Below the pieces are notes generated by a model. The model worked only from the letters and a program-made list of their open reading frames with translations, ran no database searches and had not been told where the DNA came from. DNA of 64,000 nt. Origin: Aureibaculum luteum. GTDB taxonomy: Bacteria; Bacteroidota; Bacteroidia; Flavobacteriales; Flavobacteriaceae. How positions within the stretch are numbered: the first letter of the stretch is position 1; each line of letters opens with the position of its first letter. A program made the position numbers and the translations under genes. Shown here one piece after another: positions 5,325 through 60,340 of this stretch. The DNA is taken from assembly GCF_003449015.1 (NCBI RefSeq), contig NZ_QRGD01000006.1, positions 248,001 through 312,000 of the forward strand, in the 5' to 3' direction.

Positions 5325-5336
5325 CAATGTATATTC

Positions 5337-21985: not shown

Positions 21986-22073
21986 ACCTTATCAAGGGAT
22001 TCATTAACAAAGGTTTTGTATTTATTTATAAACAAAGAACCAAATAGTAAACACTTAAACTTCATTCAAGGAT

Positions 22074-24275: not shown

Positions 24276-27200
24276 ATGTTAAAAAGAATTTATACATTTT
24301 TATTACTATTAATTTTCACATGGAGTGGATTATATGCCCAAAATACTGAACTCGAGTATTCTAAAAAGATTGATATTTCTGATGGGTTAGCACACAATGG
24401 GGTTACTTCCATTCTTGAAGATTCTAAGGGTTATCTATGGTTTGGTACTTACGACGGACTTAACAAATATGATGGATATCATCTAGATACTTATAAAAAT
24501 ACGTTAGATAACGATATTTTAACAAGCAACCGTATCAGAGCGTTAAGTGAAGATAAAAATGGAAATATTTGGATTGGTACTGATGAGGGGATTACTATTT
24601 TCAATTATTCGCAAAAAAAGTTCAAAAAAATCTACTCCAATAAACTATCTGGAAAAGGTGCACGTGGGCCTATTATTCGTAAAATAATTATTACAGAAGA
24701 AAACAAATTTATCTTAGCCATTACCGAAAATAATGGAATCCTTGTCTTTAACAAAGACTATTCTTTAATTAAAAATTATTCACAACCAACGAATGTAACT
24801 AACGCCTACGTAAAATTTTACAACGGAATATACTTAGAAAATTCAAATTATATCTTTTCTACATCTGTAGGTCTAATACTTTTCAATTCTGAAACTGAAT
24901 ACTTTCAGAAAATATCAGATATTGACATAAATCATAGTAAATCAATTATTAAAATTGATAATCATACGGTTCTGGCTACGCTATTCAAAGGTATTGCCAT
25001 TATTGAATTTAATGCTATTAACAATTCTTACTCCTTTACTGTTAAAGAGAAAATATTGAACACTTACCATTTTAATAATGCCATGTTGGATACCTTAGGT
25101 AATTTATGGTTAAGTGAGTTAAATGAAGGTATTATTCATATCGATAACATAGATGCAATTATAAAAAAAACTCCTTTTAAACTTACAAAATTCAATGATG
25201 GTCTTAAAATTTTAAGAGGTAGCGGTTTTCTTAAAACTTCTAGAAATAGTTGTTGGTTTGCAACCTTTAACGAAGGTTTGTATCAGTTTAAAATTAATAA
25301 GAATCCTTTTCATAGTTATAATACGGATATGGATTATGATTTAGGATTACAAACAAACAGCATCACTCATATTGCTCCTTTTGATGATAATCGCGTTTTT
25401 TTATCTGCAAATTTTGGTGGATTGGCATTATTTAATACGCAAAATGAAAAATTTGAACCGTTACCATTTAAATTACCAAAGAGTTCAGACTTATCAATTT
25501 CAGCGGTATTTGTTGATTCGAAGCATAACACTTGGATAAGAATCAATGATGAAAAAGCGTTGCATCGAATTAAGAAAAATTCGAAAAAATTTGAAAAGAT
25601 TCCATTTCCAAATATTTCTAATCCCAATGAGATTGCCATTCGCTCCTTTTCAGAAGATAAATTTGGAAATATTTGGATTGGGACAAATAATGACGTTTAT
25701 AAAATATCAATAAATAAATTTGATGTTGTAACGCAGGTAGAATCTCTCAATACTAATAATTTTTTTAAGAATAATGAATTGACGCTTGCTCGATATGTCT
25801 ATGCCGATCCACTGTATGATTATGTTTGGGTTGGTACAGGGTCAGATGGTCTATTTAGGGTATATAATGAAATAAATAAACCCATTGAGAAACTAGAAAT
25901 AAATCAATATATAATTGATAAAACAAGCGAACATTCCATTTCTAGCAATTTTGTTACTTCAATCTTAAGAATGCCTAATGAAGAATTATGGATTGGTACT
26001 GAGGGAGGTGGTATTTGTAAAGTTTTAAAGAGTGATACGAAACCTGAATTTATAGCTTTTACCGAAAAAAACGGATTGTCTAATAACGTGGTTAAAAGTA
26101 TTTCATTTGATAATGAAAATAATCTATGGGTGGCCACCAATATTGGATTGAATAAATTTAATACTATAGATAAAAAATTTAAAAAGTTTCATAAATCCGA
26201 CGGACTACCATTTGAAGATTTCTGGTTTGCTGCAAAGAGGATGGATAATGGAATTATTGTATTATCTGGTTTAGATGGTCTTTGCTATTTTAATCCTAAT
26301 GAAATTGCAAATACTGAAGACTTACCATTACTTCAATTCGAAAACTTTAAAATATATAATAAAACAATCGTTTTAGGAGATACCATTGATGGAAGAGTTT
26401 TACTAAAAAGGAGTTTAAACGAATTAGATGAAATTATACTAAAACATGACGAAAATGTGTTTTCAATCGATCTAATTAGTTTGCATTACTCAAATCCAGC
26501 AAATCATAACTTAAAATATAGATTATTACCCTTAAATAAAGAATGGATTGAAGTTCCTTCAGGTCAGAACACAATTCAATATAGTGGGCTTCAACCAGGT
26601 GATTATGAATTTAATGTAATGGCATCTAACTCTTTAGATGAATGGACGATACCTAAGCAATTAAAAATAATAATTAAACCTTCCATTTGGAACACAAAAT
26701 TAGCTTACTTTATTTACACTCTTTTAGGTGTTTTATTGACTTATATTATAGGTCGTGGACTATTTAAAATCCAGGCGTTAAACTATAAAGTAGAAATTGA
26801 GAAGTTAGCAGTTAATAATGTAAAAGAAGTTAATGAAGAAAAATTACGTTTCTTTTCTAATATCTCACATGAAATAAAAACACCATTAACTTTAATTTCA
26901 GGCCCTATCAACATCTTATCAGATAGGTTTAAGGGTAATGCTGATGTAACTAGTAAGTTGAAACTTATGCAGCGTCAATCAAAAAAAATTCAACAATTGA
27001 TTGATCAAGTCCAAGACTTTAGACGTGCAGATGCAAACCTTTTAAAAATGGAATACTCTCGTTTTAATTTTGATAATTTTATTCTTGAGCTTGTTGAAGA
27101 CTTCAAATTTTTAGCTAAAACAGATAATAAATCACTTATAATTGATGGTGGTGAAACCCCCATTATTATAGCTGCAGATAAAGATAAATTGGGAAAAATT

Positions 27201-28409
27201 TTAAATAATTTATTAAATAATGCTTTTAAATATACACGAACAAATGATACAATTACTATAAATTATAAAAGTGACAACAAAGATTTAATCGTTACAGTTT
27301 CAGATACAGGGCAAGGTATAGAGGAAGAAGATTTACCACATGTTTTTGAACGATTTTATCAGTCATATAAAAAGAAAACTGAACATATAGGCGGATCTGG
27401 AATAGGTTTGGCATTTTCTAAAAGATTAGTTGAAATGCATTACGGATTTATTAATGCTAAAAGTGAACTTGGTAAGAATACTATAATCACGGTGCGGTTG
27501 CCAGTTGTTAAAAAACACTTAGCATCAGACAAACTTGAAGAATTAGTATTACCAAAAGAGGAAGAGGTTGAAATTGATAATCAATTTATTGAAAGTTTTA
27601 CTCCTTCTACTATAGAAGTAAGTGGTGAATTTACTAAATCACTGATATTCTATGCTGAAGATAATTTAGAAATGAGAAATTTTGTATCAGAAGTACTTTC
27701 AAAGTACTTTATCATTAAAAACTTTAGGAATGGCCAGGAATGTATTGATGCAATGGAAGATGAATGGCCAGATCTTGTAATTAGTGATGTTCAAATGCCT
27801 GAACTTAATGGTTTAGAGTTATGTATTAGTATAAAATCAAATTTAAAAACAAGTCATATTCCTGTTATTTTACTAACGGCTTTAACCAACATAAAGGATC
27901 ATGTTCAAGGCATTAGAGATGGAGCTGATGCTTATATAAAAAAACCATTTAACGTACAGCAATTGGTCACTAATGTTGAGGCGTTGCTTACCAATCGTAA
28001 ACAACTCCGCGAACGCTATCAGGTTGGAATACCATTGACTAAGGAAAACAATAAGAATAACAGAAATGATAATGCATTTCTAGAAAAACTATACAGTCTC
28101 ATTGAAGAGAATCTCGATAATCAGGATTTTAACCTCAACAGTTTAGCCAAAGAACTCTATTTAAATCGCACCCATTTTTATCAAAAAGTAAAAGTATTGA
28201 CTGATAAAACTCCTTTTGAACTCTTGAAAATGTACAGACTAAAAAAAGCAGCAGAATTTCTTGCACAAAAAGGACTCTCTGTTAATGAAGTTTATGCAAT
28301 GACCGGTTTTAAGAGCCGTACCCATTTTACAAAAATATTCAAGGAAAAATATAATATTTCTCCAGGTAAATATGCTGCCGAAACTAGAAAAAACCACGAA
28401 TCTAGTTAG
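24276..28409 (+). CDS. Hybrid two-component system regulator (HTCS): sensor, kinase, receiver and AraC output in one protein
   Basis: 1377 residues. Signal peptide 1-22 (ends GLYAQ); a periplasmic sensor of two seven-bladed propellers built from Reg_prop repeats (for example GYLWFGTYDGLNKYD, GNIWIGTDEGITIF, NLWVATNIGLNKF); a Y_Y_Y domain (about 740-805); a membrane segment (about 810-830); HisKA with His865 in FSNISHEIKTPLTL; HATPase with NNLLNNAFKYT, DTGQGI and GGSGIGLAFSK; a receiver with phospho-acceptor Asp1171 in ISDVQMPELNG and Lys in IKKPF; and an AraC-type helix-turn-helix at about 1265-1370. HTCS proteins bind an oligosaccharide in the periplasm and switch on the adjacent PUL. It reads towards the plus-strand enzyme genes that start 197 bp downstream, and is the most likely main regulator of the locus. 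Confidence 0.97.
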   Translation: MLKRIYTFLLLLIFTWSGLYAQNTELEYSKKIDISDGLAHNGVTSILEDSKGYLWFGTYDGLNKYDGYHLDTYKNTLDNDILTSNRIRALSEDKNGNIWIGTDEGITIFNYSQKKFKKIYSNKLSGKGARGPIIRKIIITEENKFILAITENNGILVFNKDYSLIKNYSQPTNVTNAYVKFYNGIYLENSNYIFSTSVGLILFNSETEYFQKISDIDINHSKSIIKIDNHTVLATLFKGIAIIEFNAINNSYSFTVKEKILNTYHFNNAMLDTLGNLWLSELNEGIIHIDNIDAIIKKTPFKLTKFNDGLKILRGSGFLKTSRNSCWFATFNEGLYQFKINKNPFHSYNTDMDYDLGLQTNSITHIAPFDDNRVFLSANFGGLALFNTQNEKFEPLPFKLPKSSDLSISAVFVDSKHNTWIRINDEKALHRIKKNSKKFEKIPFPNISNPNEIAIRSFSEDKFGNIWIGTNNDVYKISINKFDVVTQVESLNTNNFFKNNELTLARYVYADPLYDYVWVGTGSDGLFRVYNEINKPIEKLEINQYIIDKTSEHSISSNFVTSILRMPNEELWIGTEGGGICKVLKSDTKPEFIAFTEKNGLSNNVVKSISFDNENNLWVATNIGLNKFNTIDKKFKKFHKSDGLPFEDFWFAAKRMDNGIIVLSGLDGLCYFNPNEIANTEDLPLLQFENFKIYNKTIVLGDTIDGRVLLKRSLNELDEIILKHDENVFSIDLISLHYSNPANHNLKYRLLPLNKEWIEVPSGQNTIQYSGLQPGDYEFNVMASNSLDEWTIPKQLKIIIKPSIWNTKLAYFIYTLLGVLLTYIIGRGLFKIQALNYKVEIEKLAVNNVKEVNEEKLRFFSNISHEIKTPLTLISGPINILSDRFKGNADVTSKLKLMQRQSKKIQQLIDQVQDFRRADANLLKMEYSRFNFDNFILELVEDFKFLAKTDNKSLIIDGGETPIIIAADKDKLGKILNNLLNNAFKYTRTNDTITINYKSDNKDLIVTVSDTGQGIEEEDLPHVFERFYQSYKKKTEHIGGSGIGLAFSKRLVEMHYGFINAKSELGKNTIITVRLPVVKKHLASDKLEELVLPKEEEVEIDNQFIESFTPSTIEVSGEFTKSLIFYAEDNLEMRNFVSEVLSKYFIIKNFRNGQECIDAMEDEWPDLVISDVQMPELNGLELCISIKSNLKTSHIPVILLTALTNIKDHVQGIRDGADAYIKKPFNVQQLVTNVEALLTNRKQLRERYQVGIPLTKENNKNNRNDNAFLEKLYSLIEENLDNQDFNLNSLAKELYLNRTHFYQKVKVLTDKTPFELLKMYRLKKAAEFLAQKGLSVNEVYAMTGFKSRTHFTKIFKEKYNISPGKYAAETRKNHESS

Positions 28410-28605: not shown

Positions 28606-31479
28606 ATGCATATTAACACCATTTATTCTATGAATACGAATCTAATTCAATTTCCAATAACAATACTCATTTTGTTTTTAAGCATTAATTGTGCATCAAC
28701 TCAAGTTGAGCCATCTAACGACGAAGTACATAAATTTGCTGTTTATAGTATTGAAACAGGGTTTACAATTTCAAAAGTGCGTACTGCACAAAACCAGAAT
28801 AAAACTTACGTAGTAGCCAGTAGCTACGAAGGTACTATTTTAGGGATTTCTTTAGATGGAAAAACACTATGGAAAAACGAATTATCTGGTTTTATGAATC
28901 ATGATATTTGGGCTGCTGATATTAATAATGATGGTAATGATGAAATTATCGCAGCCAATGCAGATGGCACTGTATATTGCTTAGATAACAAAGGGAAGTT
29001 ACTCTGGCAATTTAAGCAGAATGATGCACCAATGTATTCCGTATGTGTTATAAATAAAGAGAACGAAGCTTATGTGGTTTGTGGAGGATATGATAACAGT
29101 TTCTACTATGTGTCACCAAAAGGAGAAATGGTAAGCGAAATACCTTCAAAAACATATTCTATAGAAAAACCATTTGGCAAATCACATAAAGAATTGCCAC
29201 CTTCAGGTTTGCACATAACAAATTTTCTAAGGCCAGGAAAGCTTAATGGAAAAGATATTTTAATTGTTCATGGTGTTCAGAATAGTATGAATGGGGATGG
29301 GTCAATCTATTTATTTAATCCTTTGGAAAAGCTGCCATTTGAAACTGTTAGTGTACAAAAACGTGGACCATATGGCGATTTAAGAGTAGTTGATGCTAAT
29401 TCTGATGGGAGTAGTGAAATTTTATTAGGCCGAACTGGAGCTCAAGCAAAAGGAATGACTTTCCGTATTATTGACACAAAATCTCCTAATAAACAAAGTG
29501 TTCAAGATTTAAATAAAGCTAAAGATAAGGCTTCACTAAAGAGAGGTATGTATCGTGTTATTCAGCCAGAAGTTATTGATAATAATGGTAAACCCGCGTA
29601 TATGTCTTTATTTGGAAGTAATATTATTATTTCAAATATAGGAGAACCACAAGCTGCTGCCGAAGTAATACCAACACGGTTTTCTTTTAATGATATGTTT
29701 AAAGATCCTAATTCTAACAAAGTAATATTAGCAAGTGCACAAAGTGGTGGCAGTGCCATTCATATTATTAATTTTAGTAATAAAGAATGGAAAAACGGTT
29801 ATAAAAAATTAAATCCACCAGGAAAAATACAGGAGATACTGACTAATTCAGCAGAAATCAAACAGAATTTAAAAGGCTATAAAAAACCATCTTATCAAAA
29901 AGAATCAGCTCCAGTCTATTTTATGTCTGAAAACAGAAAGAAACAAGGTGCAGCAGAAGCTATTGAAAGGATTGAAGCGAAATATAGCAATCCAATATTT
30001 TTAAATGGAGGAAACTTTGATAAAGAAAATTGGGATCGTTCTACTATGACAAGTGAGATCTATAAAAATAAGCGAGATGGTAGAATGAAATATATACTAT
30101 CTCAAAATGATGTTTTAGATATAATAGAGAAAAAGCATCAAAAGTCTAATGGTAAAGGTATTTCGTATTGGGGAGGACATGGTAATGATCCATTTATGTA
30201 TCAAGTTTCAACCACTATGAAAGGTATGGATTTTGCCAATGGAAATAAAACAGTATTAATTTATCCAGAAGTAGTTGATTCTTCAGAAGAGTTTAATTTT
30301 GTGATGAATGAAATGTATTGGCCTTTAGCAAATTATGCTTCAACCCGAAATGGTAATTTGTACATGCGTAATAAGCATTTGTTTTGGCAAGCTGATGTAT
30401 ATATGCCAATGTGGGAACCTTTAGTTGCTGGTAAATATGCAAACGTATTTGTTCCAGCAATGGAAGAAACTACAGATAAATCTATGGAACTTAGTTTTAC
30501 ATCTCGATTGGGACTTTGGGCAAGTGGCTCTGTTGATAGTTGGGGAGCACGTTGTGCTAGAGATAACGTTAGTTTTGATCGTTTGCGTCAACATTCAAAT
30601 CAAACGCTACCCAACCATTTTTTAAGAACCATGGTGTATTCAATATCTAGTGGTGCACAGTACATTGATAACTTTCCAGTCGATCAAGAATATATGAGTT
30701 TACTATGGGATCTAATAGCTGAAGGTGCACTATACGTACCAGAACGCTCTGATATTTTAAGTTTTTCGCCTGTACACTTAAGTATTAACAACCCTAATGA
30801 AGAATATTTAAAAAGTTCAAGTAATGTAAAATGGTTGACCTTTTTCAAGAAGGATGGAGATAATCTAGATGATTTTGCTTTTAGTAGGTTAAATGGCACA
30901 TGGCCAGGAGCTCCTTTAACTAAATGGGATTTTTCAAGATATGCTGCCGGAGCAAATGAACGACGTTTAAATTTTATTCCAAAATATAATAACGGAATGG
31001 TTTTAATTACTCCGACACAAAATGGTGTATTTGTAGATAAAGATGCCGTTAGAAAACCGTTGGAAGAAAATATTAACCCATGGTACAAAGGTAAATTAAA
31101 AGAATATTATTCAGATGGTAAGAATTATATGTCCGCAGATGGTAAGACCACTTATAAACCTAGTGATTATTACAAGGTAATTGAAAAAGATATTGAAGAT
31201 AGTGCTGTTTTGTTACCATTGACTGTTTCTGGTAATGTGGGATGGGTAGTTGCACAAATTTCACCAAAACATTTACGTTTAACAATTGTCGAAAATGGCT
31301 ATATTAATCCGAAGAAAGCTACTGCATCGGTTAAAATTAATAGTATTAAAGTAGTAAAAATCAAAGATATCTTAAACAATGAAGAGTTTAAACCTAATGT
31401 AAACTCTGAAGTTGAAATAGATATTCCCTTAGGAGGTTTTCGTTTTATAGATATTGAACTGGAAAACGAATTAAAATAA
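28606..31479 (+). CDS. Putative lambda-carrageenase (GH150-like), propeller plus C-terminal catalytic domain, copy 1
   Basis: 957 residues; the start could also be Met9 (28630). The signal ends LSINC, so it is probably a surface lipoprotein. Residues about 40-420 form a PQQ/FG-GAP-type propeller (ADINNDGNDEIIAANADGTV, LDNKGKLLWQF, VDANSDGSSEILLG). After a linker (about 425-480) comes a large C-terminal domain with GGHGNDPF (His525), YPEV (Glu555), PAMEET (Glu620) and a final beta-sandwich ending GGFRFIDIELE. This two-part architecture and length match the lambda-carrageenase CglA of Pseudoalteromonas (942 residues), founder of GH150. The paralogue at 48,283 conserves the same motifs, suggesting functional residues. 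It heads the plus-strand operon just behind the HTCS. Assignment rests on architecture and context; I could not compare sequences directly. Confidence 0.6.
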   Translation: MHINTIYSMNTNLIQFPITILILFLSINCASTQVEPSNDEVHKFAVYSIETGFTISKVRTAQNQNKTYVVASSYEGTILGISLDGKTLWKNELSGFMNHDIWAADINNDGNDEIIAANADGTVYCLDNKGKLLWQFKQNDAPMYSVCVINKENEAYVVCGGYDNSFYYVSPKGEMVSEIPSKTYSIEKPFGKSHKELPPSGLHITNFLRPGKLNGKDILIVHGVQNSMNGDGSIYLFNPLEKLPFETVSVQKRGPYGDLRVVDANSDGSSEILLGRTGAQAKGMTFRIIDTKSPNKQSVQDLNKAKDKASLKRGMYRVIQPEVIDNNGKPAYMSLFGSNIIISNIGEPQAAAEVIPTRFSFNDMFKDPNSNKVILASAQSGGSAIHIINFSNKEWKNGYKKLNPPGKIQEILTNSAEIKQNLKGYKKPSYQKESAPVYFMSENRKKQGAAEAIERIEAKYSNPIFLNGGNFDKENWDRSTMTSEIYKNKRDGRMKYILSQNDVLDIIEKKHQKSNGKGISYWGGHGNDPFMYQVSTTMKGMDFANGNKTVLIYPEVVDSSEEFNFVMNEMYWPLANYASTRNGNLYMRNKHLFWQADVYMPMWEPLVAGKYANVFVPAMEETTDKSMELSFTSRLGLWASGSVDSWGARCARDNVSFDRLRQHSNQTLPNHFLRTMVYSISSGAQYIDNFPVDQEYMSLLWDLIAEGALYVPERSDILSFSPVHLSINNPNEEYLKSSSNVKWLTFFKKDGDNLDDFAFSRLNGTWPGAPLTKWDFSRYAAGANERRLNFIPKYNNGMVLITPTQNGVFVDKDAVRKPLEENINPWYKGKLKEYYSDGKNYMSADGKTTYKPSDYYKVIEKDIEDSAVLLPLTVSGNVGWVVAQISPKHLRLTIVENGYINPKKATASVKINSIKVVKIKDILNNEEFKPNVNSEVEIDIPLGGFRFIDIELENELK

Positions 31480-32986: not shown

Positions 32987-34801
32987 ATGAAAAAAATTAA
33001 GCAGATAACATTAATCGTATTATTTGGATTTTTAATATCATGTACTTCAAATGCCGCCGAAGTCATCCATATAAAGCATACAGATGGAGACATGACAATG
33101 ACAATTCGTGAAGTCATTGAAAATTCTAAAGGAAAAGATATAAAACTTGTTTTTGAAAAAGGTAATTATAAATTTCTTACTGATTACGCAGTTGGTAAAT
33201 ACATGCATATTACCAATCATGGTAACGGTTTTAAGAAAGTAATTTTCAATTTTGAAGGTTTTAATTCAGTTGAAATAGAAGGCAATGGTTCAGAATTTAT
33301 ATTTAGAGGGCAAACTGCACCTTTTGTATTTGAAGGTTGTAATAAAATCAATATTAGTAATCTTACTTTAGATTGGGATATTCCGTTTTCTTTTCAAGGT
33401 GATGTTATTGATGTAAATAAGGAAGAACAATATTTTGATTTAAAACCTTATACCGAGGGCTTTTCTTGGAAACTAACAAAAGGACAAATTGAATTCCCTG
33501 GAATTAATCATTTTAATTTCACAGCATTAGGAAGTACTTTGTCACATAACAAAGAAACCAAAGCAGTCGATTATGGTGCTTGGGATATATCTTTAAATCC
33601 AAATTACGTAGAAAAATTATCAAACGGAAATTTACGTTTTTATGATAAAAACATGAAACATTTTCCTAGAGTAGGAACTGTTTTACAGTCAAAAGGGGAT
33701 AAAAAAAATAATCGTTATGCACCAGCTTTTTTAGTTAGAAATTCAAAAAATATAACAATTGACAACGTTGTGATTCATCATGCTTTAGGCATGGGATTCT
33801 TGTTCGAAAGGTCTGAAGATATCAATATCCTAAATAGTGGAATCTATATTCGTGAAAGTTCAGATAGAGTCATTTCTATTATTGCAGATGCAACTCATTT
33901 TGCAAATTGTAAAGGGGATATTCTAATAGAAAATTGTCGTTTAGAAGGAATGTATGACGATGGAACCAATGTGCATGGAACTTATGTGGAAGTTGATAAA
34001 GTTTTAAATAAAAATACGGTTAGAGTTGCTTTAAGACACGACCAGCAATTGGGTTTTGAGTTTGCGGGAGTTGATGATGAAATTTGGTTTATTAAAAGCC
34101 CTAATCCACAAAGAGCTGAAGAAAACAAAGTGTCTTCGGTGAAAGTTATTAATGATGTTTATACAGAATTAACGTTTAAAAATGAATTGTCTTCAGACCT
34201 CAAACCAGGAGATATTTTAGAGAACAAAACTTGGAACCCAACATTTACAATGCGTGGAAATACTATTAGGGATCATCGAGCGAGAAATATCATCATTAAA
34301 ACACCTAAAAAAATAATTATAGAAGATAATGATTTATCATCAATGATGTCTTCAATTATGTTACGTGGTGAAACATTCTATTGGTACGAGTCCGGCAATG
34401 TAGAAGATGTTGTAATACGGAATAATCGTTTTGTTCATTGTGCTTATGGTGGAGCAGAACATGCGATTTTAAAAGTCTCGCCTAGACTTGGTAAAACTTT
34501 TGATGATTCAATGCTTTATGATAGAAATATATTATTCGAAAACAACACCATTGAAACCTTTGATAACAGAATTATTTGGGCTGATCGTGTTGATGGATTA
34601 ATAATTAAAAACAACACCATCAAACAAACAACCACTGAACAACCGCAATATCCTGACGCTTTTATGTTTGATTTAATTAATTGTAACAACATTGAAATCA
34701 CTAATAATATTTACGAAGGTGATTGTAAAAATGTCTTGAAAGCAGATGATGTTTCAAAAAAGACATTGGTTTTTAAAAAGAACAAAGGACTTAAAAAATA
34801 A
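32987..34801 (+). CDS. GH110 alpha-1,3-galactosidase, copy 1
   Basis: 604 residues, signal peptide 1 to about 23 (LISCTSNAAE, possible lipoprotein Cys). A right-handed parallel beta-helix is indicated by repeated short strand patterns (NITIDNVVIHHA, INILNSGIYI, ILIENCRLEG, VVIRNNRFVH, LIIKNNTIK). The GH110 catalytic aspartates are present: Asp301 in ADATHF (acid) and Asp324-Asp325 in YDDGTNVHGTY (base pair), with the same 23-residue spacing as Asp321 and Asp344/345 of the marine enzyme PdGH110B. The family removes terminal alpha-1,3-linked D-galactose, with inversion; marine members act on lambda-carrageenan fragments. The preceding sulfatase is 8 bp away and the GH42-like gene starts 3 bp after its stop. 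Expected in the periplasm. Confidence 0.88.
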   Translation: MKKIKQITLIVLFGFLISCTSNAAEVIHIKHTDGDMTMTIREVIENSKGKDIKLVFEKGNYKFLTDYAVGKYMHITNHGNGFKKVIFNFEGFNSVEIEGNGSEFIFRGQTAPFVFEGCNKINISNLTLDWDIPFSFQGDVIDVNKEEQYFDLKPYTEGFSWKLTKGQIEFPGINHFNFTALGSTLSHNKETKAVDYGAWDISLNPNYVEKLSNGNLRFYDKNMKHFPRVGTVLQSKGDKKNNRYAPAFLVRNSKNITIDNVVIHHALGMGFLFERSEDINILNSGIYIRESSDRVISIIADATHFANCKGDILIENCRLEGMYDDGTNVHGTYVEVDKVLNKNTVRVALRHDQQLGFEFAGVDDEIWFIKSPNPQRAEENKVSSVKVINDVYTELTFKNELSSDLKPGDILENKTWNPTFTMRGNTIRDHRARNIIIKTPKKIIIEDNDLSSMMSSIMLRGETFYWYESGNVEDVVIRNNRFVHCAYGGAEHAILKVSPRLGKTFDDSMLYDRNILFENNTIETFDNRIIWADRVDGLIIKNNTIKQTTTEQPQYPDAFMFDLINCNNIEITNNIYEGDCKNVLKADDVSKKTLVFKKNKGLKK

Positions 34802-34804
34802 GAG

Positions 34805-37078
34805 ATGAGACTTTTCAAATTCATAATTGTAGTTTTTTTAAGTTTTACATCTTGTAAAGCTCAAAATGTGCCAACTGGTATAAATGATAAAATTGAAACA
34901 CTTCAAAATCTAATTAAAAAAGCAGAAAAAAAAGGAATCGATGTTTTAAAAGAAAAAACAACTATAAGAACTGCTGAAATATTTTTAAAATTTGCAAATT
35001 GGGATGAAAAAAATGTGGAGACCAACGTAACATTCTTCAAAAAAGTACCATCTTATAAAGCGGACGCTGAAAAACTAGCACAAGATTTACCAGCTTTCGA
35101 GAGAAAAGAAATCTACTTAATGCTCGATAAAGCAGAAAGTAATTTAAGAAAATTAATTTCAAAAGAAATCTATAGAAAACCAAGTCCAAATGTAGATTGG
35201 ACCAAAGTAAATGTTGAAGGAGACCAAATAACTTACAACAACAGACCTGTTTTTTTAGCAGATTATACTTGGAAACCTGATGGGAAATTGTATAACGAAT
35301 ATCATGGAAATCAAGATGGTTTTTTCTTAACACCACCACAAGTTATAGATTCAAACGGAACTGTTAACCCACGAGTTATTAATGAACTAGATTCTAAAGC
35401 AGATGGCTCTATTGGTTTTATTTTTATGAACCATAAAAATGTTCCTGATTGGACAACAAAAAAGTATGAAGAAGGTTTCAAAATGCGTGAAGATACCTAT
35501 ACAGCTTACGATATAGATAATCCTGGTGCTAGAGAGCTTCAAAAGTATTTATTGGGAGCAGTAGTTCCTAAAATGGCTGGTAAAAAATTCACACAACTGG
35601 GTTATATGTTGTGTAATGAACCTCATTTTTATGCCTACAGCGATAAAACCAAGAAAAAGAAACCTTGGGCTTCAGGTCCCGTTTCAGAATATACAATTGC
35701 TAAGTTTAAAGATTGGCTGCAGCATAAGCATCATGGTATTTCAGAACTAAATCGAATCTGGAGAACAAATTTTACTAGTTTCGAAACAATAACAGCCAAT
35801 ATCCCTTTAGATATAAGCTTAAAGGGAACACCAATTTGGTATGATTGGGTAGCTTTTAATATGGATAGGGTTACGGAATGGTATACATTTCTAAAAGATG
35901 AAGTCAAAACTCACGACCCTGAAGCCAAAGTACATTTAAAGATAATGCCAAATCTTTGGACAAATAATATGAGAGCTCATGGTATCGATTTTGAAGCACT
36001 AACAGATTTAAGTGACATTATCGGTAATGATTCTGGTGCAGACCACAAGTATACTTGGGGAAAACCACATGAATGGCAAAAAAAATATGCTTTTGAGTGG
36101 CGAGAATTATGCATGGGCTACGATTTCTTAAAATCTGTAAGTTCAGATAAAATTAACTTCAATTCAGAATTACACTACTTATCTACAGTACGTTCTCGAG
36201 ATTTATACCTAGATCCAAGTTATGCTAGAGCGACGTTTTGGTTGGCACATTCTTACGGAATGACAGCAAGTCAAATTTGGTTTTGGCCTCGTAAAGCAGA
36301 TGGTGAAGTTACTGACAGAGCTGGCAAGGGTTATGCAGGGTCTAATAACCAGCAACCAAGAGTCACTAACGAAGTGGCAATGACTTTAATAGATTTAAAT
36401 ACCAATGCTGAAGCTATTATGACAATGCAAAGACAACGTAAGCCAATACGTTTGTTTTATTCAAAAACGTCTGCCATAAATAATGGTAATCATATGGATA
36501 ATCAATTCAAAATGTATGAAGCATTGCATTTTGAAGGTACACCTTTGGGCTTCGTAACGCAGAATATTATTAAAAAACAAGATAACAGTAATTGGAATAT
36601 CGTAGTTGTATACAATACTCCTAATGTTACTAAAGAAGAGCTTCAATCACTTCAGAATTATCTCGATAACGGTGGAACAGTTATCCTAGATAATAAAAGT
36701 CTGTTGAAAGATGAATATGGACAAGCTTTATTAGAATTAAAAGCTTCAAAAGGAATTTTATTAATGCTGAATTCAGTTTTGGAAATCAAGAACAAAGTAT
36801 TATCCATTTTAAAAGATAAAAATAGTTTACCAGAAGTAAAAGTTGAAGAAACAAATGCCATTGGTACTAAAGGTTGTATTTGGAAAGTCATTAAAAATGA
36901 AGCAGGTAATAACGTGTTGTCTGTGGTAAATGTTGGAAAATCAGATGCTACATTAAATATCACACTTAATGGAAGTGACGCTATTATTTGCAAAGATCTA
37001 ATTGATGGAATTGAGGTTAGCAAAACGCCAGTATTAAAGCCTTTCGATGTCTATTTTGTTGAAATAACTAAAAACTAA
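34805..37078 (+). CDS. GH42-like (clan GH-A) beta-galactosidase or exo-carrageenase
   Basis: 757 residues; lipoprotein-like signal ending FTSC (Cys18). Residues 20-125 are a lysine- and glutamate-rich helical extension not usual in GH42. The TIM barrel (about 140-530) has the acid/base in LCNEPHF (Glu272) and probable nucleophile in NFNSELHYL (Glu455). It is followed by a domain (about 545-650) with VVYNTP...NYLDNGGTVILDN, matching the GH42 middle (trimerisation) domain of glutamine-amidotransferase-like fold, and a short beta-sandwich. GH42 enzymes are beta-galactosidases; GH167, an exo-beta-carrageenase family from marine Pseudoalteromonas, is related to GH42 and is a serious alternative, as is an unassigned branch. 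The gene is tightly packed between GH110 (3 bp) and the esterase (3 bp), so it probably cuts the beta-1,4 bond alternately with GH110. Confidence 0.75.
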   Translation: MRLFKFIIVVFLSFTSCKAQNVPTGINDKIETLQNLIKKAEKKGIDVLKEKTTIRTAEIFLKFANWDEKNVETNVTFFKKVPSYKADAEKLAQDLPAFERKEIYLMLDKAESNLRKLISKEIYRKPSPNVDWTKVNVEGDQITYNNRPVFLADYTWKPDGKLYNEYHGNQDGFFLTPPQVIDSNGTVNPRVINELDSKADGSIGFIFMNHKNVPDWTTKKYEEGFKMREDTYTAYDIDNPGARELQKYLLGAVVPKMAGKKFTQLGYMLCNEPHFYAYSDKTKKKKPWASGPVSEYTIAKFKDWLQHKHHGISELNRIWRTNFTSFETITANIPLDISLKGTPIWYDWVAFNMDRVTEWYTFLKDEVKTHDPEAKVHLKIMPNLWTNNMRAHGIDFEALTDLSDIIGNDSGADHKYTWGKPHEWQKKYAFEWRELCMGYDFLKSVSSDKINFNSELHYLSTVRSRDLYLDPSYARATFWLAHSYGMTASQIWFWPRKADGEVTDRAGKGYAGSNNQQPRVTNEVAMTLIDLNTNAEAIMTMQRQRKPIRLFYSKTSAINNGNHMDNQFKMYEALHFEGTPLGFVTQNIIKKQDNSNWNIVVVYNTPNVTKEELQSLQNYLDNGGTVILDNKSLLKDEYGQALLELKASKGILLMLNSVLEIKNKVLSILKDKNSLPEVKVEETNAIGTKGCIWKVIKNEAGNNVLSVVNVGKSDATLNITLNGSDAIICKDLIDGIEVSKTPVLKPFDVYFVEITKN

Positions 37079-46534: not shown

Positions 46535-48058
46535 ATGAAATTTACATTATCTAAAACTTTACTATATTTAGTTGTATGCGTTATCTGTTTTTCTTGTAAT
46601 TCACAAAAGAAAGTAGCCGAAAAAAAACCAAATATCCTGTGGATAGTTGCTGAAGACTTATCGCCTTTTATGGGCTGTTACGGAGATTCTATAAATGCTG
46701 GACATACCCCAGTTATAGATAAATTGGCTAGTGAAGGCGTGCTTTTTAAACGTGCTTATGCTAGTGCTCCAGTTTGTTCTGCAGCAAGATCTGCATTTAT
46801 TACAGGTGTTATGCAAACTACAACAGGAACTCATAATCATAGATCGAGTAGATTTACCGATGATAGTATTGTACCTCAAGATTTACGTATTCTTTTACCT
46901 AAAGACATGAAAACCATTCCTGAATTAATGAAGGATGCCGGATATTTTACCTTTAATAGTGGAAAAGATGATTATAATTTCCATTATGATAGAAGAGCTT
47001 TATATGATGTGGGTACAAAAGAGAACTATAAGGCAGGGATGAACGGTTGGCAAGGAAATCATGCTATTGATTACATGACGGTAAAGAATTACGTATGGAG
47101 TTCAAGACCTGACAAAAGTCAACCTTGGTTTGGTCAAGTACAAATAATGGGTGGAAAAAAAGATGCTAAGTATGTTCGAGAAGGTGAGAAATTAGAGCCA
47201 AACGATGTGCCTTTGCCTCCTTATTTCCCTAATATCCCATCGCAACGCGAAGCTTGGACAACACACTACAATGCAAATAGAGGGTCTGATGTTACGGTTG
47301 AAAATATATTAAAACAATTGGAAGCAGATGGCGAGCTGGAAAACACTATCATCTTTTTCTTTTCAGATCATGGAAGCCCAACGTCTCTTCGTCATAAACA
47401 ATTTTGTTATGAAGGCGGTTTGTTAGTGCCCTTAATGATTAAGGGGAATCATCCAGCTTTAAAAGCAGGTGTTGTAAGAAACGATTTGGTATCATTATTA
47501 GATGTGTCGGCTACAACTTTAGCCATGGGAGGAGCTGTTATGCCAAAATATTTAGACGGTAAAGATTTGTTTGTTAAAGACTTTAAAGAGTCAAAATATG
47601 TTATAGGAGCAAGAGATAGATGTGATTATACCATTGACAGAATAAGGACTGTAGTTTCTAAAGACTTCCGTTATATTAAAAACTTTTTTCCAGAAAGACC
47701 AATGATGCAGGCGGGCTACAGAGATAATAAGCCAATTGTAAAGGATCTAAAAAAAGCTCATGAAGAAGGTAAATTAACCCCATACCAAGAAAAACATTGG
47801 TTTGGAGTACGACCTGTTGAAGAGTTATATGATTTAAAAGCAGATCCAGATGAAATGAATAACCTGGCTGAAAATCCTGAATTTTCTAAAGTTCTTTTAG
47901 AACACAGAACCGTTTTAGAAAATTGGATAAAAGATACGGATGATAAAGGGCAATATCCAGAAGATGCGGCTCAGTTAGAAGCGACATTTAATTTATGGAA
48001 AGACAGACCACGATTTAAAAATGCAAAAGTTAATCCTGAGTATGATCAGTTTAGATAA
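46535..48058 (+). CDS. Sulfatase, family S1, lipoprotein (CSAAR)
   Basis: 507 residues; lipoprotein signal ending ICFSC (Cys21). Active site: IVAEDLSPFMGCYGD, VCSAARSAF with Cys81 as formylglycine precursor and Ala at both positions normally Pro and Ser, SGKDDYNF in place of GKWH, and FFSDHGSPTSLRHKQFCYEGG. The AEDLS...THNHRS set is shared with the sulfatase at 54,414, so they are one subfamily. The unusual CSAAR core still has the Arg and the downstream Gly, so it should be matured by a formylglycine-generating enzyme, but this is an inference. It is followed by the 81 bp inverted repeat element and then the second GH150-like gene. Confidence 0.92.
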   Translation: MKFTLSKTLLYLVVCVICFSCNSQKKVAEKKPNILWIVAEDLSPFMGCYGDSINAGHTPVIDKLASEGVLFKRAYASAPVCSAARSAFITGVMQTTTGTHNHRSSRFTDDSIVPQDLRILLPKDMKTIPELMKDAGYFTFNSGKDDYNFHYDRRALYDVGTKENYKAGMNGWQGNHAIDYMTVKNYVWSSRPDKSQPWFGQVQIMGGKKDAKYVREGEKLEPNDVPLPPYFPNIPSQREAWTTHYNANRGSDVTVENILKQLEADGELENTIIFFFSDHGSPTSLRHKQFCYEGGLLVPLMIKGNHPALKAGVVRNDLVSLLDVSATTLAMGGAVMPKYLDGKDLFVKDFKESKYVIGARDRCDYTIDRIRTVVSKDFRYIKNFFPERPMMQAGYRDNKPIVKDLKKAHEEGKLTPYQEKHWFGVRPVEELYDLKADPDEMNNLAENPEFSKVLLEHRTVLENWIKDTDDKGQYPEDAAQLEATFNLWKDRPRFKNAKVNPEYDQFR

Positions 48059-48282: not shown

Positions 48283-50925
48283 ATGAAAAAAATATTTATG
48301 GCTTTCGTTTTTGCATTAATAGCATTTACGATTTCTGCACAGCACTTTATAACAGAAGGAAATGCTATTAGACATACTATTGTTGCTTCAGTAAATGGGG
48401 AATCTGTATTGTTTATAGGAGAATTAGATGGAAGCGTCTCTTCGTATACGCTAGGAGGAGAACAACTATGGCGAGTGGCTACCGATGATCCCGCTGTGCT
48501 TTTCGAAATTGAAGCTGCAGATATTAATAATGATGGTAATGATGATTTATTAGTTGCAAATGCCAACGGAAACATCTATTGTTACGATAGTTCAGGAAAA
48601 CTATTATGGCAATTTGCTTCGGATCATAAAGTACGTTTTTCTGAAGTTGCAGTTGTTAAAAACAAAGGTAATGTTCAGATTTTTGCAGGTGGAAATGATC
48701 GTACATTATATGAATTAGATACTAGGGGAAAGCTAGTTTCAGAAACGAAAATTGAAGGTGTTGTTAGAAAATTGGAAGCTGGTAATTTTGTCAACTCAGA
48801 AACAGAAAGCCTTTTTCTAATGACGTACAGTTATGATAAATTCCGTTGGGAGTTTTTAGGGTTCATGGATGCCAATTCAAAAGTAGTCATTAAAAGCGTT
48901 GATGATAAGGAAAAGTATTTAAAAAAATTAACAAAAGCAATGGTTACTGATATTACGATTGCTGATATCAATGGGGATAAAAAAGACGACATCTTATTTT
49001 TTGGAGACGATAAGTTTAAACCTTTATTTACAGCTTTAGATAGTGACTTCAACATTATTGCAGAATATCAAGGCAATAATAAACAAACACAGCGTTATGC
49101 ACATTCTCAAGGAGCATTTTTACCAAGTAGAAATGAAATTATGTTTCAGCATGGTGGCATTTTACTGGTTTTAGATAACAAAGGAAAGTTAATTAAATCA
49201 TCAGGCGAACGTTATGGTAAAATGGTGTTTAGTGATTTTGCAGTCGAACAAAAATCGAATCAACTTATAGCTGGCGGAACTGTAGATGGAGGCAATGCGA
49301 TTTGTTTTTACGATTTAACAAGAGATAATTGGTTTAAGACGAACCATAATAAAGAAGGCAGAATGCTCGAGGTCGAAAAAAATATTGCCACTCTTTATGA
49401 GCAAACGCTAAATTTTAAATTACCTAGTTATCAAACTAAATCGGAAAAAGAATGGGTTATGATTACAAAAAGTAATACCGATTCTAGGCTAGAAAAACTA
49501 GATGGTGGAGATATTACATTTGTGATTCAAAAAGCACCTAAGGAATCTACTGATCGATCGCATTTAGTGGCAATTATGGGAGATGTTGCCTTAAAAAAAG
49601 ATAAGCGTGGTAAATACCAAGATTCAAGAGAAGATATAATACAAATGGCTAGAGATTTTGAAGCAGAAGGTCAACCATTCACATTTTGGGCGGGTCATGG
49701 AAATGATCCGTTTTATATTCAGATTGAAACTTTAGAGCAAATATTAGAAGTTGCACCAAATACCTGTTATGGTTTTGTATATGCAGAAATGGCGAATGTT
49801 GAAGATCCTAGAGTTATTCATTATGTAAAGGAATATATGCCAAGACTTGCTAAGGCAATCCGGAAAAATAATAAGGCAAAACTATACTTTAGATATAAAA
49901 ATATGTTTTGGGCTGCAACTTCACACTTACCATTATGGAAAGACATGTTCTTCTCAAAGAAATATAGCGATATTTTAGCACCTGCTTCTGAAGACACAAG
50001 TAATCGCACACAAGACTTAAATTTAGCAGGTCGTGTTGGTATGCATTCAGGAGGTTATGTAAATGATTATGCAATGCGACTAATTGATGATAACCCTACA
50101 AGTTGGAGACCATTGTCGCCAGGCGGACAAAATTCAGTATCGCCATATTTAAGACAAGGCGTAATAATGGCAGCATATGGAGCAAGATATGGTGTGGTTT
50201 CTACAAGTGGTTTTGTAGAAGAACCTGGTTTAAACGTATTATTTGCTTTAATGAAATCTGGAGTGCTTCCTATTGTTGAACCTGAAAACATTCAGTCTAT
50301 TGGTTCTTGGCTTCTTATAAAAGATGTAGATAAAGAATTGATTCATGGTGTAGATAATCATCATAAAATAGATCAATATAAAATTGATGATGATAATGCA
50401 GTTTTTTCAGTTTCTCAAATGCATTGGGCTGGAACGAGTATTCCAGAATACGATTTCTCTAATGTAGCTTTAGGTGTAAAATACCGTTGGACCAACTACA
50501 TGCCAGAATTACCTTATGGAATGGTACCAGTAGCACCCATAGAAAGTAAGGTGAAATTAGAAAAAGCCAATGTGCCTTATTTTGTGTCTAATGCAAAAGT
50601 TGGATATGAGGGCGAAAACAAAGTATCAGCAGATCAATTTGGTGATACTATTATAAAAACGGTAGAAGCTGGCGAAAAGAAACTTAATATTGTTGTAAAC
50701 GGAGCATCTTGGAGTGCCATTAAAATTGATGATTCTCACACCCGATTAATTATAGTAGATCAAGGATATCTTGATCCTCAAAAAAGAGAAGCTACGATAA
50801 AGTTTCAAAATAAAATGCCTGTATCGGCAACTGATATTTTGAGTAAAGAAAGTTTAAGGTTTGGAAAGGAAATTAAACTTACAATTCCAGCAGGTTCTAT
50901 GCGATTTATTGATATTGCTTATTAA
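48283..50925 (+). CDS. Putative lambda-carrageenase (GH150-like), copy 2
   Basis: 880 residues with an ordinary signal peptide (about 1-19, ends TISAQ) and no lipobox, so it is secreted or periplasmic. N-terminal propeller (about 25-370) with ADINNDGNDDLLVANANGNI, DSSGKLLWQF and ADINGDKKDDILFF; linker; C-terminal domain with AGHGNDPF (His472), YAEM (Glu502), PASEDT (Glu570) and terminal sandwich ending GSMRFIDIAY. It is collinear with the 957-residue protein at 28,606, but sequence identity outside the motifs is low, suggesting a different specificity. Architecture fits GH150. It follows the sulfatase and the inverted repeat by 122 bp and is the last gene before the strand change at 51,085. 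Confidence 0.58.
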   Translation: MKKIFMAFVFALIAFTISAQHFITEGNAIRHTIVASVNGESVLFIGELDGSVSSYTLGGEQLWRVATDDPAVLFEIEAADINNDGNDDLLVANANGNIYCYDSSGKLLWQFASDHKVRFSEVAVVKNKGNVQIFAGGNDRTLYELDTRGKLVSETKIEGVVRKLEAGNFVNSETESLFLMTYSYDKFRWEFLGFMDANSKVVIKSVDDKEKYLKKLTKAMVTDITIADINGDKKDDILFFGDDKFKPLFTALDSDFNIIAEYQGNNKQTQRYAHSQGAFLPSRNEIMFQHGGILLVLDNKGKLIKSSGERYGKMVFSDFAVEQKSNQLIAGGTVDGGNAICFYDLTRDNWFKTNHNKEGRMLEVEKNIATLYEQTLNFKLPSYQTKSEKEWVMITKSNTDSRLEKLDGGDITFVIQKAPKESTDRSHLVAIMGDVALKKDKRGKYQDSREDIIQMARDFEAEGQPFTFWAGHGNDPFYIQIETLEQILEVAPNTCYGFVYAEMANVEDPRVIHYVKEYMPRLAKAIRKNNKAKLYFRYKNMFWAATSHLPLWKDMFFSKKYSDILAPASEDTSNRTQDLNLAGRVGMHSGGYVNDYAMRLIDDNPTSWRPLSPGGQNSVSPYLRQGVIMAAYGARYGVVSTSGFVEEPGLNVLFALMKSGVLPIVEPENIQSIGSWLLIKDVDKELIHGVDNHHKIDQYKIDDDNAVFSVSQMHWAGTSIPEYDFSNVALGVKYRWTNYMPELPYGMVPVAPIESKVKLEKANVPYFVSNAKVGYEGENKVSADQFGDTIIKTVEAGEKKLNIVVNGASWSAIKIDDSHTRLIIVDQGYLDPQKREATIKFQNKMPVSATDILSKESLRFGKEIKLTIPAGSMRFIDIAY

Positions 50926-58282: not shown

Positions 58283-58441
58283 TTTGCTTTTTAAATAATA
58301 TCTCGAGGTCTGAAAACTTCAACATTTACAGGGGGTTACTGTTAATTTACTGTTAAATACATTTTATGTACGCGTATATACACATGCTTTGATGAATTGA
58401 ATGATATTTACTTCTGTAAAAGCACAATAAATCAAATTTTA

Positions 58442-60340
58442 ATGTCAATACATAAAAACATTACAAGAATTCTTCTATCAACGGTATTACTTTTTAATCT
58501 CAGTTGTTATAGTCAACAAATGCCAAAAGGTGAGGTGGTAGAATTTGGTTTAGGTATTGCTGAAGATGCAACACCAGCTTTAGTATCAAGAATTCTAAAG
58601 GCTAATGAAAAACCGATTTCAGAAATAAAATTTGAAAAAGGAACCTATCATTTTTATCCAGACAAAGGTTTTGAAAAATTTTGCTACATATCAAATCATG
58701 GTGACTTGATGGTAAATACACCTTTCCCAATATTTAATATAGAAAACTTAACTATAGATGGTCAAGGGTCTACGTTTATATTTCATGGAGTAATGATTCC
58801 ATTTTTAATTGATGAAAGTAAAAATATAAGTATAAAGAATGTATCTATTGACTGGTACCAATCATTTCATAGTGAAGGGCTAATTGTAGCAAATGATGAA
58901 GTCAATAAAACTTTTGATATGCAAATTTCTGATGAATACCCTTATGATATCCGCAATGGTGAATTGTTTTTTATAAAAGAATATTATCAACATACCATTG
59001 GACAATCTATCTTATTTGATCCAAAAAGAAAAGCGATTTATTTTGATACAGAAGCCTATACAAATATTACTACAAAATCAAAATCGACTACCACCAATAA
59101 TTTAGATAATATTAAATACAAGTATGAATATGATAAACGCGATGTAGGCTATAAGAATATAGGTATTGAAAATCGTGTTACAGTTAAAGAATTAAAACCA
59201 GGATTGCTTCGAGTTTATGGTCACACTAAAAAAATGCCACCTGTAGGTCATATTTTGTCCATGAAAGGTGAACAAGGTTTAAATAGAGTCTCACCTGCGT
59301 TTAGCGTAAAACATACTAATGGGTTTAATGCTCTAAATGTAAATGTACATCATGCAGGAGGCATGGGTATTATCGCAGAAAATTCTGCGAATCTTATTTT
59401 GGACAATTTTAATGTTACACCATCCCAAGGACGAATGGTATCTACTACTGCAGATGCAACTCATTTTGTTGGTTGCAGAGGAAAAGTGGTATTAAAAAAT
59501 TGCACATTTGAAAATCAATTGGATGATGCTTCTAATATCCATGGTACTTATCAAAAAATCGTTGATGTTTTAGATGAATATAGAATTGGTGTTAGAATGG
59601 GGCATCATCAACAAAAAGCTTTTGTAATCGGTCAACCTAATGATAATTTAGGTTTTGTTAGATTGAGTAATTCATTTTTCGCTTATCAAAAAGCTACAAT
59701 AAAAAGTATTGAATACATTAATAATAGGTACCAAATTATAACGCTAAACGAAAAGTTACCCGCTGATGTACTACCAGGAGATTTAGTAGAAAACCTTGAT
59801 GGGTATCCAAATTTATTAGTCCAAAACTGTACCATAAGAAATAACAGAGCAAGAGGTTTATTGATTTCCAATCCTGTAAACACCGTTATTGAAAATAACT
59901 TTTTTAGTACTGAAATGGAGGCAATTTTAATACCGGTAGAAAGTGGTCATTGGTACGAATCTGGAAATGCAGCCAATGTTGTTATTAGAGATAATACATT
60001 TCAAGACTGTCAACATGGTGGAAAAGACCGTGGTGTAATTCGATTTGACACAGATGATGATAATAAGAATATAGCCTTTAAAAATATAGAAATTGTTGAC
60101 AATACTTTTAATCAATTTGATAATCTAATTCTTGAGGTTACTAATTTGGACGGTCTTGTTTTTAAAGGAAATACTATTACCAATACAGAAACTTTTCCCC
60201 GACTTCACCCGAAAAATCCTGCTTTTAAAGTTAAACGTTCTAAAAATATAAAATTTCAAAACAATATTTATAAAGGCAAAGTAAAAAATGAAGCAGTATT
60301 GGAAACGGATGAAACGATGTCGAATTTAAAATTTAAATAA
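58442..60340 (+). CDS. GH110 alpha-1,3-galactosidase, copy 2
   Basis: 632 residues from ATG at 58442, where the signal peptide MSIHKNITRILLS begins and ends LFNLSC; an in-frame TTG at 58397 is rejected because it adds 15 residues before the signal. Parallel beta-helix patterns are visible (LTIDGQGSTFIFHG, ISIKNVSIDWY, LLVQNCTIRNNRARG, VVIRDNTFQDC, IEIVDNTFNQF). Catalytic Asp338 (ADATHF) and Asp361-Asp362 (LDDASNIHGTY) are spaced as in GH110. Motifs ADATHFVGCRGK, HHAGGMG and HWYESGNAANVVIR are also close to the copy at 32,987 but the proteins are clearly diverged, with a 20-residue insertion near residue 205 here (TKSKSTTTNNLDN). Removes terminal alpha-1,3 galactose. SusC starts 48 bp downstream. 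Confidence 0.88.
   Translation: MSIHKNITRILLSTVLLFNLSCYSQQMPKGEVVEFGLGIAEDATPALVSRILKANEKPISEIKFEKGTYHFYPDKGFEKFCYISNHGDLMVNTPFPIFNIENLTIDGQGSTFIFHGVMIPFLIDESKNISIKNVSIDWYQSFHSEGLIVANDEVNKTFDMQISDEYPYDIRNGELFFIKEYYQHTIGQSILFDPKRKAIYFDTEAYTNITTKSKSTTTNNLDNIKYKYEYDKRDVGYKNIGIENRVTVKELKPGLLRVYGHTKKMPPVGHILSMKGEQGLNRVSPAFSVKHTNGFNALNVNVHHAGGMGIIAENSANLILDNFNVTPSQGRMVSTTADATHFVGCRGKVVLKNCTFENQLDDASNIHGTYQKIVDVLDEYRIGVRMGHHQQKAFVIGQPNDNLGFVRLSNSFFAYQKATIKSIEYINNRYQIITLNEKLPADVLPGDLVENLDGYPNLLVQNCTIRNNRARGLLISNPVNTVIENNFFSTEMEAILIPVESGHWYESGNAANVVIRDNTFQDCQHGGKDRGVIRFDTDDDNKNIAFKNIEIVDNTFNQFDNLILEVTNLDGLVFKGNTITNTETFPRLHPKNPAFKVKRSKNIKFQNNIYKGKVKNEAVLETDETMSNLKFK

Follow-up and report, generated by a model that had tools for sequence, protein, structure and literature searches.

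The window analysed here is a 64,000-nucleotide stretch of Aureibaculum luteum DNA (contig NZ_QRGD01000006.1, positions 248,001 to 312,000), and the gene under study lies on its plus strand at 28606..31479, encoding a protein of 957 amino acids. Judged from its open reading frame (ORF), its Pfam domains, and its likeness to a plasmid-borne GH150 protein of P. carrageenovora (46.7% identity, covering 97% of the query), the 28606 protein is a GH150 lambda-carrageenase of type A. It is built from an N-terminal beta-propeller (Beta-prop_CGLA, residues 68-388, 28807..29769, E 4.9e-132), a middle catalytic domain (CGLA_M, residues 475-846, 30028..31143, E 6.1e-185), and a C-terminal domain (CGLA_C, residues 873-951, 31222..31458, E 1.5e-35). 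A paralogue of 880 amino acids lies at 48283..50925, also on the plus strand, and is placed in type B by Pfam, by our family tree, and by 52.1% identity to GH150B, the second GH150 protein of P. carrageenovora. All three domains score above the Pfam cut-offs in both window proteins, which are 29% identical in a pairwise alignment; two CGLA_M matches were found in the window's genome. A lipobox-like LSINC-A with Cys29, a signal spotted by eye, means that the 28606 protein is possibly a surface lipoprotein, and Met9, at 28630, offers another possible start for the ORF. The new elements of this analysis are that the catalytic barrel of GH150 looks remotely related to that of GH98, and that Glu555 is favoured as the general acid, with Asp653 or Glu620 as the candidate base.

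The original prediction, made from the letters of the window, had described a propeller plus an unknown domain resembling a lambda-carrageenase and three motifs shared with the paralogue, GHGNDPF, Y-P/A-E, and PA-x-E-E/D-T. It had singled out His525, Glu555, and Glu620 (His472, Glu502, and Glu570 in the paralogue), offering the shared carboxylates as candidates for the catalytic pair. The ORF and the paralogue lie where the prediction had them. Pairwise alignment bore out all three motifs, and the three residue pairs occupy the same columns; the lambda-carrageenase resemblance holds through the three CGLA domains and the identity given above. To these two proteins we added homologues, reaching 78 unique sequences, of which 77 were aligned (57 type A, 18 type B, and two very distant), the partial sequence L016 (629 amino acids) being left out and seven of the 57 A rows reaching a locus edge. 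The tree of these 77 proteins has two deep clades, A and B, with the two very distant rows outside them, and the window holds one member of each clade.

His525, Glu555, and Glu620 were found to be invariant in 75/75 A- and B-type rows, and both glutamates are kept in each of the GH150 rows from P. carrageenovora, two in number. The family alignment holds 32 acidic positions that are identical between the window paralogues, but only six of the 109 acidic residues in the 28606 protein (D105, D528, E555, E620, D653, and D775) are invariant across the A and B rows, so the sharing of the motif carboxylates appears to be more than chance. Extending the count to all 77 rows leaves four of the 109: E555, E620, D653, and D775. 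A comparison of two paralogues leaves those 32 positions in play, and the two glutamates picked in the original prediction were therefore good choices, while D653 and D775 were missed. Among basic residues, only K590 and R786 are invariant in the 77 rows. The GHGNDPF motif (residues 524-530, 30175..30195) is less uniform: GHGNDP is found letter for letter in 54 of 57 A rows, 13 of 18 B rows, and neither distant row, His525 becoming Lys in the distant row L083 and Asp528 becoming His or Asn in the two distant rows. The match of Glu555 in those two rows requires a one-residue gap, and in alignment A4, which lacks this gap, its column is only nearly invariant. The propeller was set aside as the catalytic part, as none of the four carboxylates invariant in 77 rows lies there.

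An AlphaFold2 model of the 28606 protein, made with an alignment of 32 sequences, has a pLDDT of 88.1 and a pTM of 0.88. Strands at 519-522, 549-554, 583-588, 615-618, 647-650, and 686-689 alternate with helices to form six clear units, and the middle domain looks like a (beta/alpha)8 barrel of GH98 type, most of which would fall within CGLA_M; the propeller of the original prediction is thus present, and its unknown domain now has both a Pfam name and a predicted fold. Strand names follow our own count. The GHGNDPF motif follows strand 519-522, Glu555 (30268..30270) stands directly after strand 549-554 (beta4), Glu620 (30463..30465) after 615-618 (beta6), and Asp653 (30562..30564) after 647-650 (beta7), while Asp775 (30928..30930) lies beyond the last barrel strand listed. 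Glu555 and Glu620 each come after a barrel strand in the model and are therefore expected to face a common barrel mouth. When the model was searched against PDB with Foldseek, BoGH98 of Bacteroides ovatus ranked first (E 9.9e-13). It led the list for the paralogue model as well (E 4.6e-12), where Sp4GH98 took ranks 9 (E 3.7e-10) and 11. Among the best 50 of 1734 and the best 50 of 1813 matches for the two models, the others were, by title, propeller proteins or complexes with them. The top VIA-align match of the 28606 model, 8ova_A7 (Z 28.6, root-mean-square deviation (rmsd) 2.6, 291 aligned), likewise falls on the propeller.

For a comparison at the level of sequence profiles, GH98-like proteins were collected from genome searches. 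Such homologues are rare: none of 296 genomes in the window's phylum gave a match over the Glyco_hydro_98M cut-off, compared with six of 194 in the Pontiella phylum and one of 294 in the Rhodopirellula phylum, and one of 47 genomes in a single order, where the hit repeated loci already known. Seven sequences, each above the cut-off, thus make up the GH98 profile. Its best match in PDB has an E-value of 7.2e-98, and 20 of its 23 listed matches are GH98 chains, the other three having E >0.6. Aligned by hhalign, 42 GH150 rows and the seven GH98-like rows matched with a probability of 95.6 (E 1.3e-8, 257 columns). We then ran 16 further comparisons, setting residues 430-735 of four GH150 sets against GH98, reversed GH98, GH5, and GH42. 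The control profiles comprised 11 of 12 GH5 loci and 13 of 15 GH42-like loci after a length filter, the latter being weak PF02449 matches. All 77 rows together scored 95.1 with GH98, compared with 1.0 for reversed GH98, 0.4 for GH5, and 0.7 for GH42. GH98 was the top score for each GH150 set (B clade 92.1, A clade 63.6, distant pair 9.1), and 11 of the 12 controls scored at most 1.0.

GH98 enzymes invert the anomeric configuration. Glu361 and Asp467 are the key catalytic residues of BoGH98 (PMC4491172), and Glu411 is the general acid of RgGH98 (PMC8730463); these and the other papers cited here by PMC number are represented by parts of their text. Among the BoGH98 structures, 9h6g, whose title gives E361A, and 9h6h both have Ala in place of the Glu of NYCEQ (chain position 309), so that the numbering is offset by 52; by our own count, Asp467 is then the D in GIRFDQ, at chain position 415. 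We take Glu361 to be the acid and Asp467 the base. With all GH150 rows, hhalign pairs Glu555 with the GH98 catalytic Glu, and with the B clade alone, Glu502 of the paralogue (49786..49788) is paired with it in three of three settings. Glu620, its equivalent Glu570 (49990..49992), and their distant counterpart pair instead with a GH98 lysine in all six local and two of three global alignments. Of the catalytic pair first suggested, then, Glu555 finds a counterpart in GH98 and Glu620 faces a lysine. The column of BoGH98 Asp467 is occupied by Ala651 in the A clade and, with one gap, by Asp602 in the B clade; the invariant Asp653, or Asp603 of the paralogue (50089..50091), lies two or one residues past it, respectively. 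Eight GH98-like proteins were also read individually, one of them (L143) placed by eye. Seven have Lys at beta6 and Asp or Glu at beta7, while L101 (L101:964-2553) carries Glu in place of that lysine and Gln in place of that acid, which may be a parallel to a relocated base.

Taken as a whole, we consider it probable that the 28606 protein is a secreted, inverting GH150 endo-lambda-carrageenase with a GH98-like barrel, using Glu555 as the acid and either Asp653 or Glu620 as the base. The enzyme would be secreted and possibly surface-anchored, and would hydrolyse, in endo fashion and with inversion, the beta-1,4 bond that joins galactose-2-sulfate to galactose-2,6-disulfate. Its middle domain would form a (beta/alpha)8 barrel with remote homology to that of GH98, in which Glu555, just after beta4, would act as general acid in the manner of BoGH98 Glu361. 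Water would be activated by another carboxylate, placed at a different point of the barrel mouth, and the invariant Lys590 and Arg786 are probably there to bind sulfates. The replacement of the beta6 lysine by Glu620, together with a beta7 acid that is out of register, implies that the base either stayed on beta7 (Asp653) or moved to beta6 (Glu620).

We slightly favour Asp653, because it is next to the BoGH98 Asp467 position, and give it a little short of an even chance. It would take the place of Asp467, shifted by a longer beta7 loop, with Glu620 orienting the substrate or tuning a pKa. Asp653 is invariant in 77/77 rows and follows strand 647-650, and with the B clade, the pair Asp602-Asp603 lines up with an Asp-Asp of the GH98 protein L095; yet the A-clade alignment has Ala651 rather than Asp653 on the Asp467 column, and Glu620 is equally invariant. 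The second reading keeps the two glutamates of the original prediction, with Glu555 as the acid and Glu620 as the base; here the base has moved from beta7 to beta6 relative to GH98, Glu620 replacing the lysine and the beta7 position being now uncharged. It is tentative but still a serious candidate. It draws on the invariance of Glu620, on the absence of any acidic residue in the Ala651 column, and on L101, which shows the same swap. However, an invariant Asp653 sits only one or two residues from the Asp467 position, and L101 is one of eight GH98-like proteins read, with a weak PF08306 match (31.2 bits). A bolder version would give GH150 and GH98 a single ancestral barrel enzyme and a common clan; in GH150, the base would have migrated from beta7 to beta6 (Lys to Glu620), with the beta4 acid kept. 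Such a relocation would be unusual, though L101 offers a glimpse of it, and this version strikes us as rather doubtful.

A number of observations weigh against the GH98-like mechanism. Plain sequence searches failed to produce the link: PF08306 (Glyco_hydro_98M) was unmatched in either window GH150 protein up to E 1, profile A2 searched against PDB up to E 10 gave 34 matches, mostly propellers and none named GH98, and the barrel profile A4 gave no PDB match. The relationship, if correct, is thus invisible to the plain sequence searches run here. The A clade alone, which holds the 28606 protein, scores with GH98 at just 63.6 in local and 87.5 in global mode, and pairs Glu555 not with the catalytic Glu but with Pro131, 13 residues on, in two of three settings, leaving it uncovered in the third. 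The two distant rows alone reach a probability of 9.1 or 0.1, with the catalytic Glu unmatched; neither the A clade alone nor the distant pair alone would carry the GH98 claim. One control is high, the B clade scoring 54.8 with GH42. The Ala651 column is A, V, T, S, or I in all rows and acidic in 0/77, so the base is not transferable by alignment. The Foldseek TM-scores with BoGH98 are low (0.30-0.33, rmsd 21-23 A) because whole multi-domain chains were aligned, and the paralogue model has a pLDDT of 73.2, which makes its fold matches weaker evidence. GH98 is also absent from the best 50 VIA-align rows per model, which are all centred on the propeller and so exclude nothing. Finally, the inverting outcome is taken from a secondary source.

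Some of these points could also mean that GH150 and GH98 have the same barrel fold but no common ancestor, in which case residue roles do not transfer. Barrels are common, the B clade has its GH42 score, and the A clade taken alone puts Glu555 off the GH98 Glu. We nevertheless regard this as unlikely, given that all rows together score 95.1 with GH98 and at most 0.7 with GH5 and GH42, that GH98 heads both Foldseek lists, and that Glu555 is invariant whatever the ancestry. Even less probable is a catalytic pair drawn from the other invariant groups, His525, Asp528, or Asp775: although His525 and Asp528 are invariant in 75/75 A and B rows and Asp775 in 77/77, the first two are replaced in the distant rows as described above, and their counterparts in the alignment with GH98 are Ser and Tyr.

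The mechanism proposed, an inverting enzyme with a GH98-like barrel, can be set beside published systems. The CglA-type protein of P. carrageenovora KCTC 22325 (L035:14962-17790), to which the 46.7% identity refers, resembles the 28606 protein and keeps E555, E620, and D653; it comes from a different phylum and gene neighbourhood. From its place on the plasmid near a GH16 gene, we infer that this record is the published cglA of strain 9T (PMC6262041). The second GH150 of this species (L037:12001-14700) is only 25% identical to the 28606 protein and lies in polysaccharide utilization locus (PUL) 8 with GH2, two GH110, and two S1_8 genes (PMC6262041). P. distincta GH150A and GH150B are active on lambda-carrageenan and inactive on kappa or iota (PMC12549532), and its GH150B is presumably the orthologue of that second protein. 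Those two enzymes, for which crystallisation failed, were modelled with AlphaFold2, and a conserved patch of ~12 A in a cleft was reported (PMC12549532). For a Maribacter enzyme, oligosaccharides were docked and arginines named (PMC11202985). Removal of its PQQ-like domain leaves 51.59 U/mg, compared with up to 418.68 U/mg for the parent (PMC11202985); the truncated enzyme still has 815 amino acids, so that much of the propeller may remain.

According to a secondary source, lambda-carrageenases invert the anomeric configuration (PMC4483632), which modifies the original statement that GH150 has no established mechanism. The other half of that statement stands: no catalytic GH150 residue is named in the literature covered, which was mostly non-subscription and partly represented by passages and listings. 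The sections of PMC12549532 covered name none, "GH98" is absent from its main text, and neither "Glu" nor "Asp" occurs in the main text of PMC11202985 as available. The PDB copy searched held no GH150 structure. No paper naming GH150 and GH98 together, or GH150 with inverting and catalytic, was found in a search of mostly non-subscription papers. GH98, represented by the BoGH98 endoxylanase (9h6f, 9h6g, 9h6h), Sp4GH98 (2wmf, 2wmh), and RgGH98, appears to share with GH150 a barrel, by first rank in Foldseek though with low TM-scores, as well as the profile match; the catalytic Glu column agrees with all rows and with the B clade, but not with the A clade alone or the distant pair alone. Published members act in endo fashion on beta-1,4 links (PMC8730463, PMC4491172), which is also the link expected for GH150. 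The two families differ in the N-terminal propeller of GH150, where GH98 has galactose-binding-like or carbohydrate-binding modules (PMC8730463), in the beta6 Lys that is Glu in GH150, in the beta7 acid that is out of register, and in the missing GH98 Pfam match.

The surrounding genes bear on the likely substrate. Upstream, a hybrid two-component regulator with Reg_prop, Y_Y_Y, HisKA, HATPase_c, Response_reg, and HTH_18 domains by Pfam lies at 24276..28409 (plus strand). From 31506 onward, the plus strand carries two GH110-like, two GH2, and one GH127 gene, a SASA-type esterase, and seven sulfatase-like ORFs, five of which are recognised by Pfam, while those at 31506 and 37995 have only NCBIfam scores under the cut-off. 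The GH110-like gene at 32987..34801 (plus, GLAA-B domains) shares 54.6% identity with a protein from PUL 8 of P. carrageenovora, and the second, at 58397..60340 (plus), has a best identity of 33% to P. carrageenovora. A sulfatase at 46535..48058 (plus) shares 43.2% with a PUL 8 sulfatase, S1_8 according to PMC6262041, while the locus GH2 match is about 25%. Because of the GH110, GH150B, and sulfatase matches to P. carrageenovora, the gene content supports lambda-carrageenan as the probable substrate. A GH42-like protein (34805-37078) and the SASA-type esterase (37082-37990) sit between sulfatase-like genes. ORFs at 20969-23213, read by eye as galT and galK, adjoin the polysaccharide locus, which fits galactose as an end product. 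Two GH127 genes occur in opposite arms of the locus, at 3333-5327 (minus) and 44432-46438 (plus); together with GH16-type genes on the minus strand, this pair suggests the breakdown of other carrageenans beside the lambda pathway.

The CGLA_M family was observed to be uncommon, occurring in 14 of 397 sampled genomes of the taxonomic family (the window's genome included) and in two of 296 of the phylum. Meanwhile, the Pontiella sulfatireligans genome (G679, the source of L024) has 11 CGLA_M matches, 10 of them over the cut-off and several in ORFs of 1275-1489 amino acids. The two very distant GH150-like proteins, L082:2183-5443 and L083:2495-6424, score 62.9 and 47.1 bits with CGLA_M and are possibly a new GH150 subfamily; L082 bears a Por_Secre_tail and sits, by eye, between two sulfatase-like ORFs.

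The 28606 protein is a member of a known family, GH150, with a testable candidate for the acid and two ranked candidates for the base. The GH98 link narrows the conserved patch to a short list for mutagenesis, E555 and then D653 versus E620. It would also supply inactive forms of the enzyme for complexes with its substrate, a very highly sulfated polysaccharide, and would tie GH150 to GH98.

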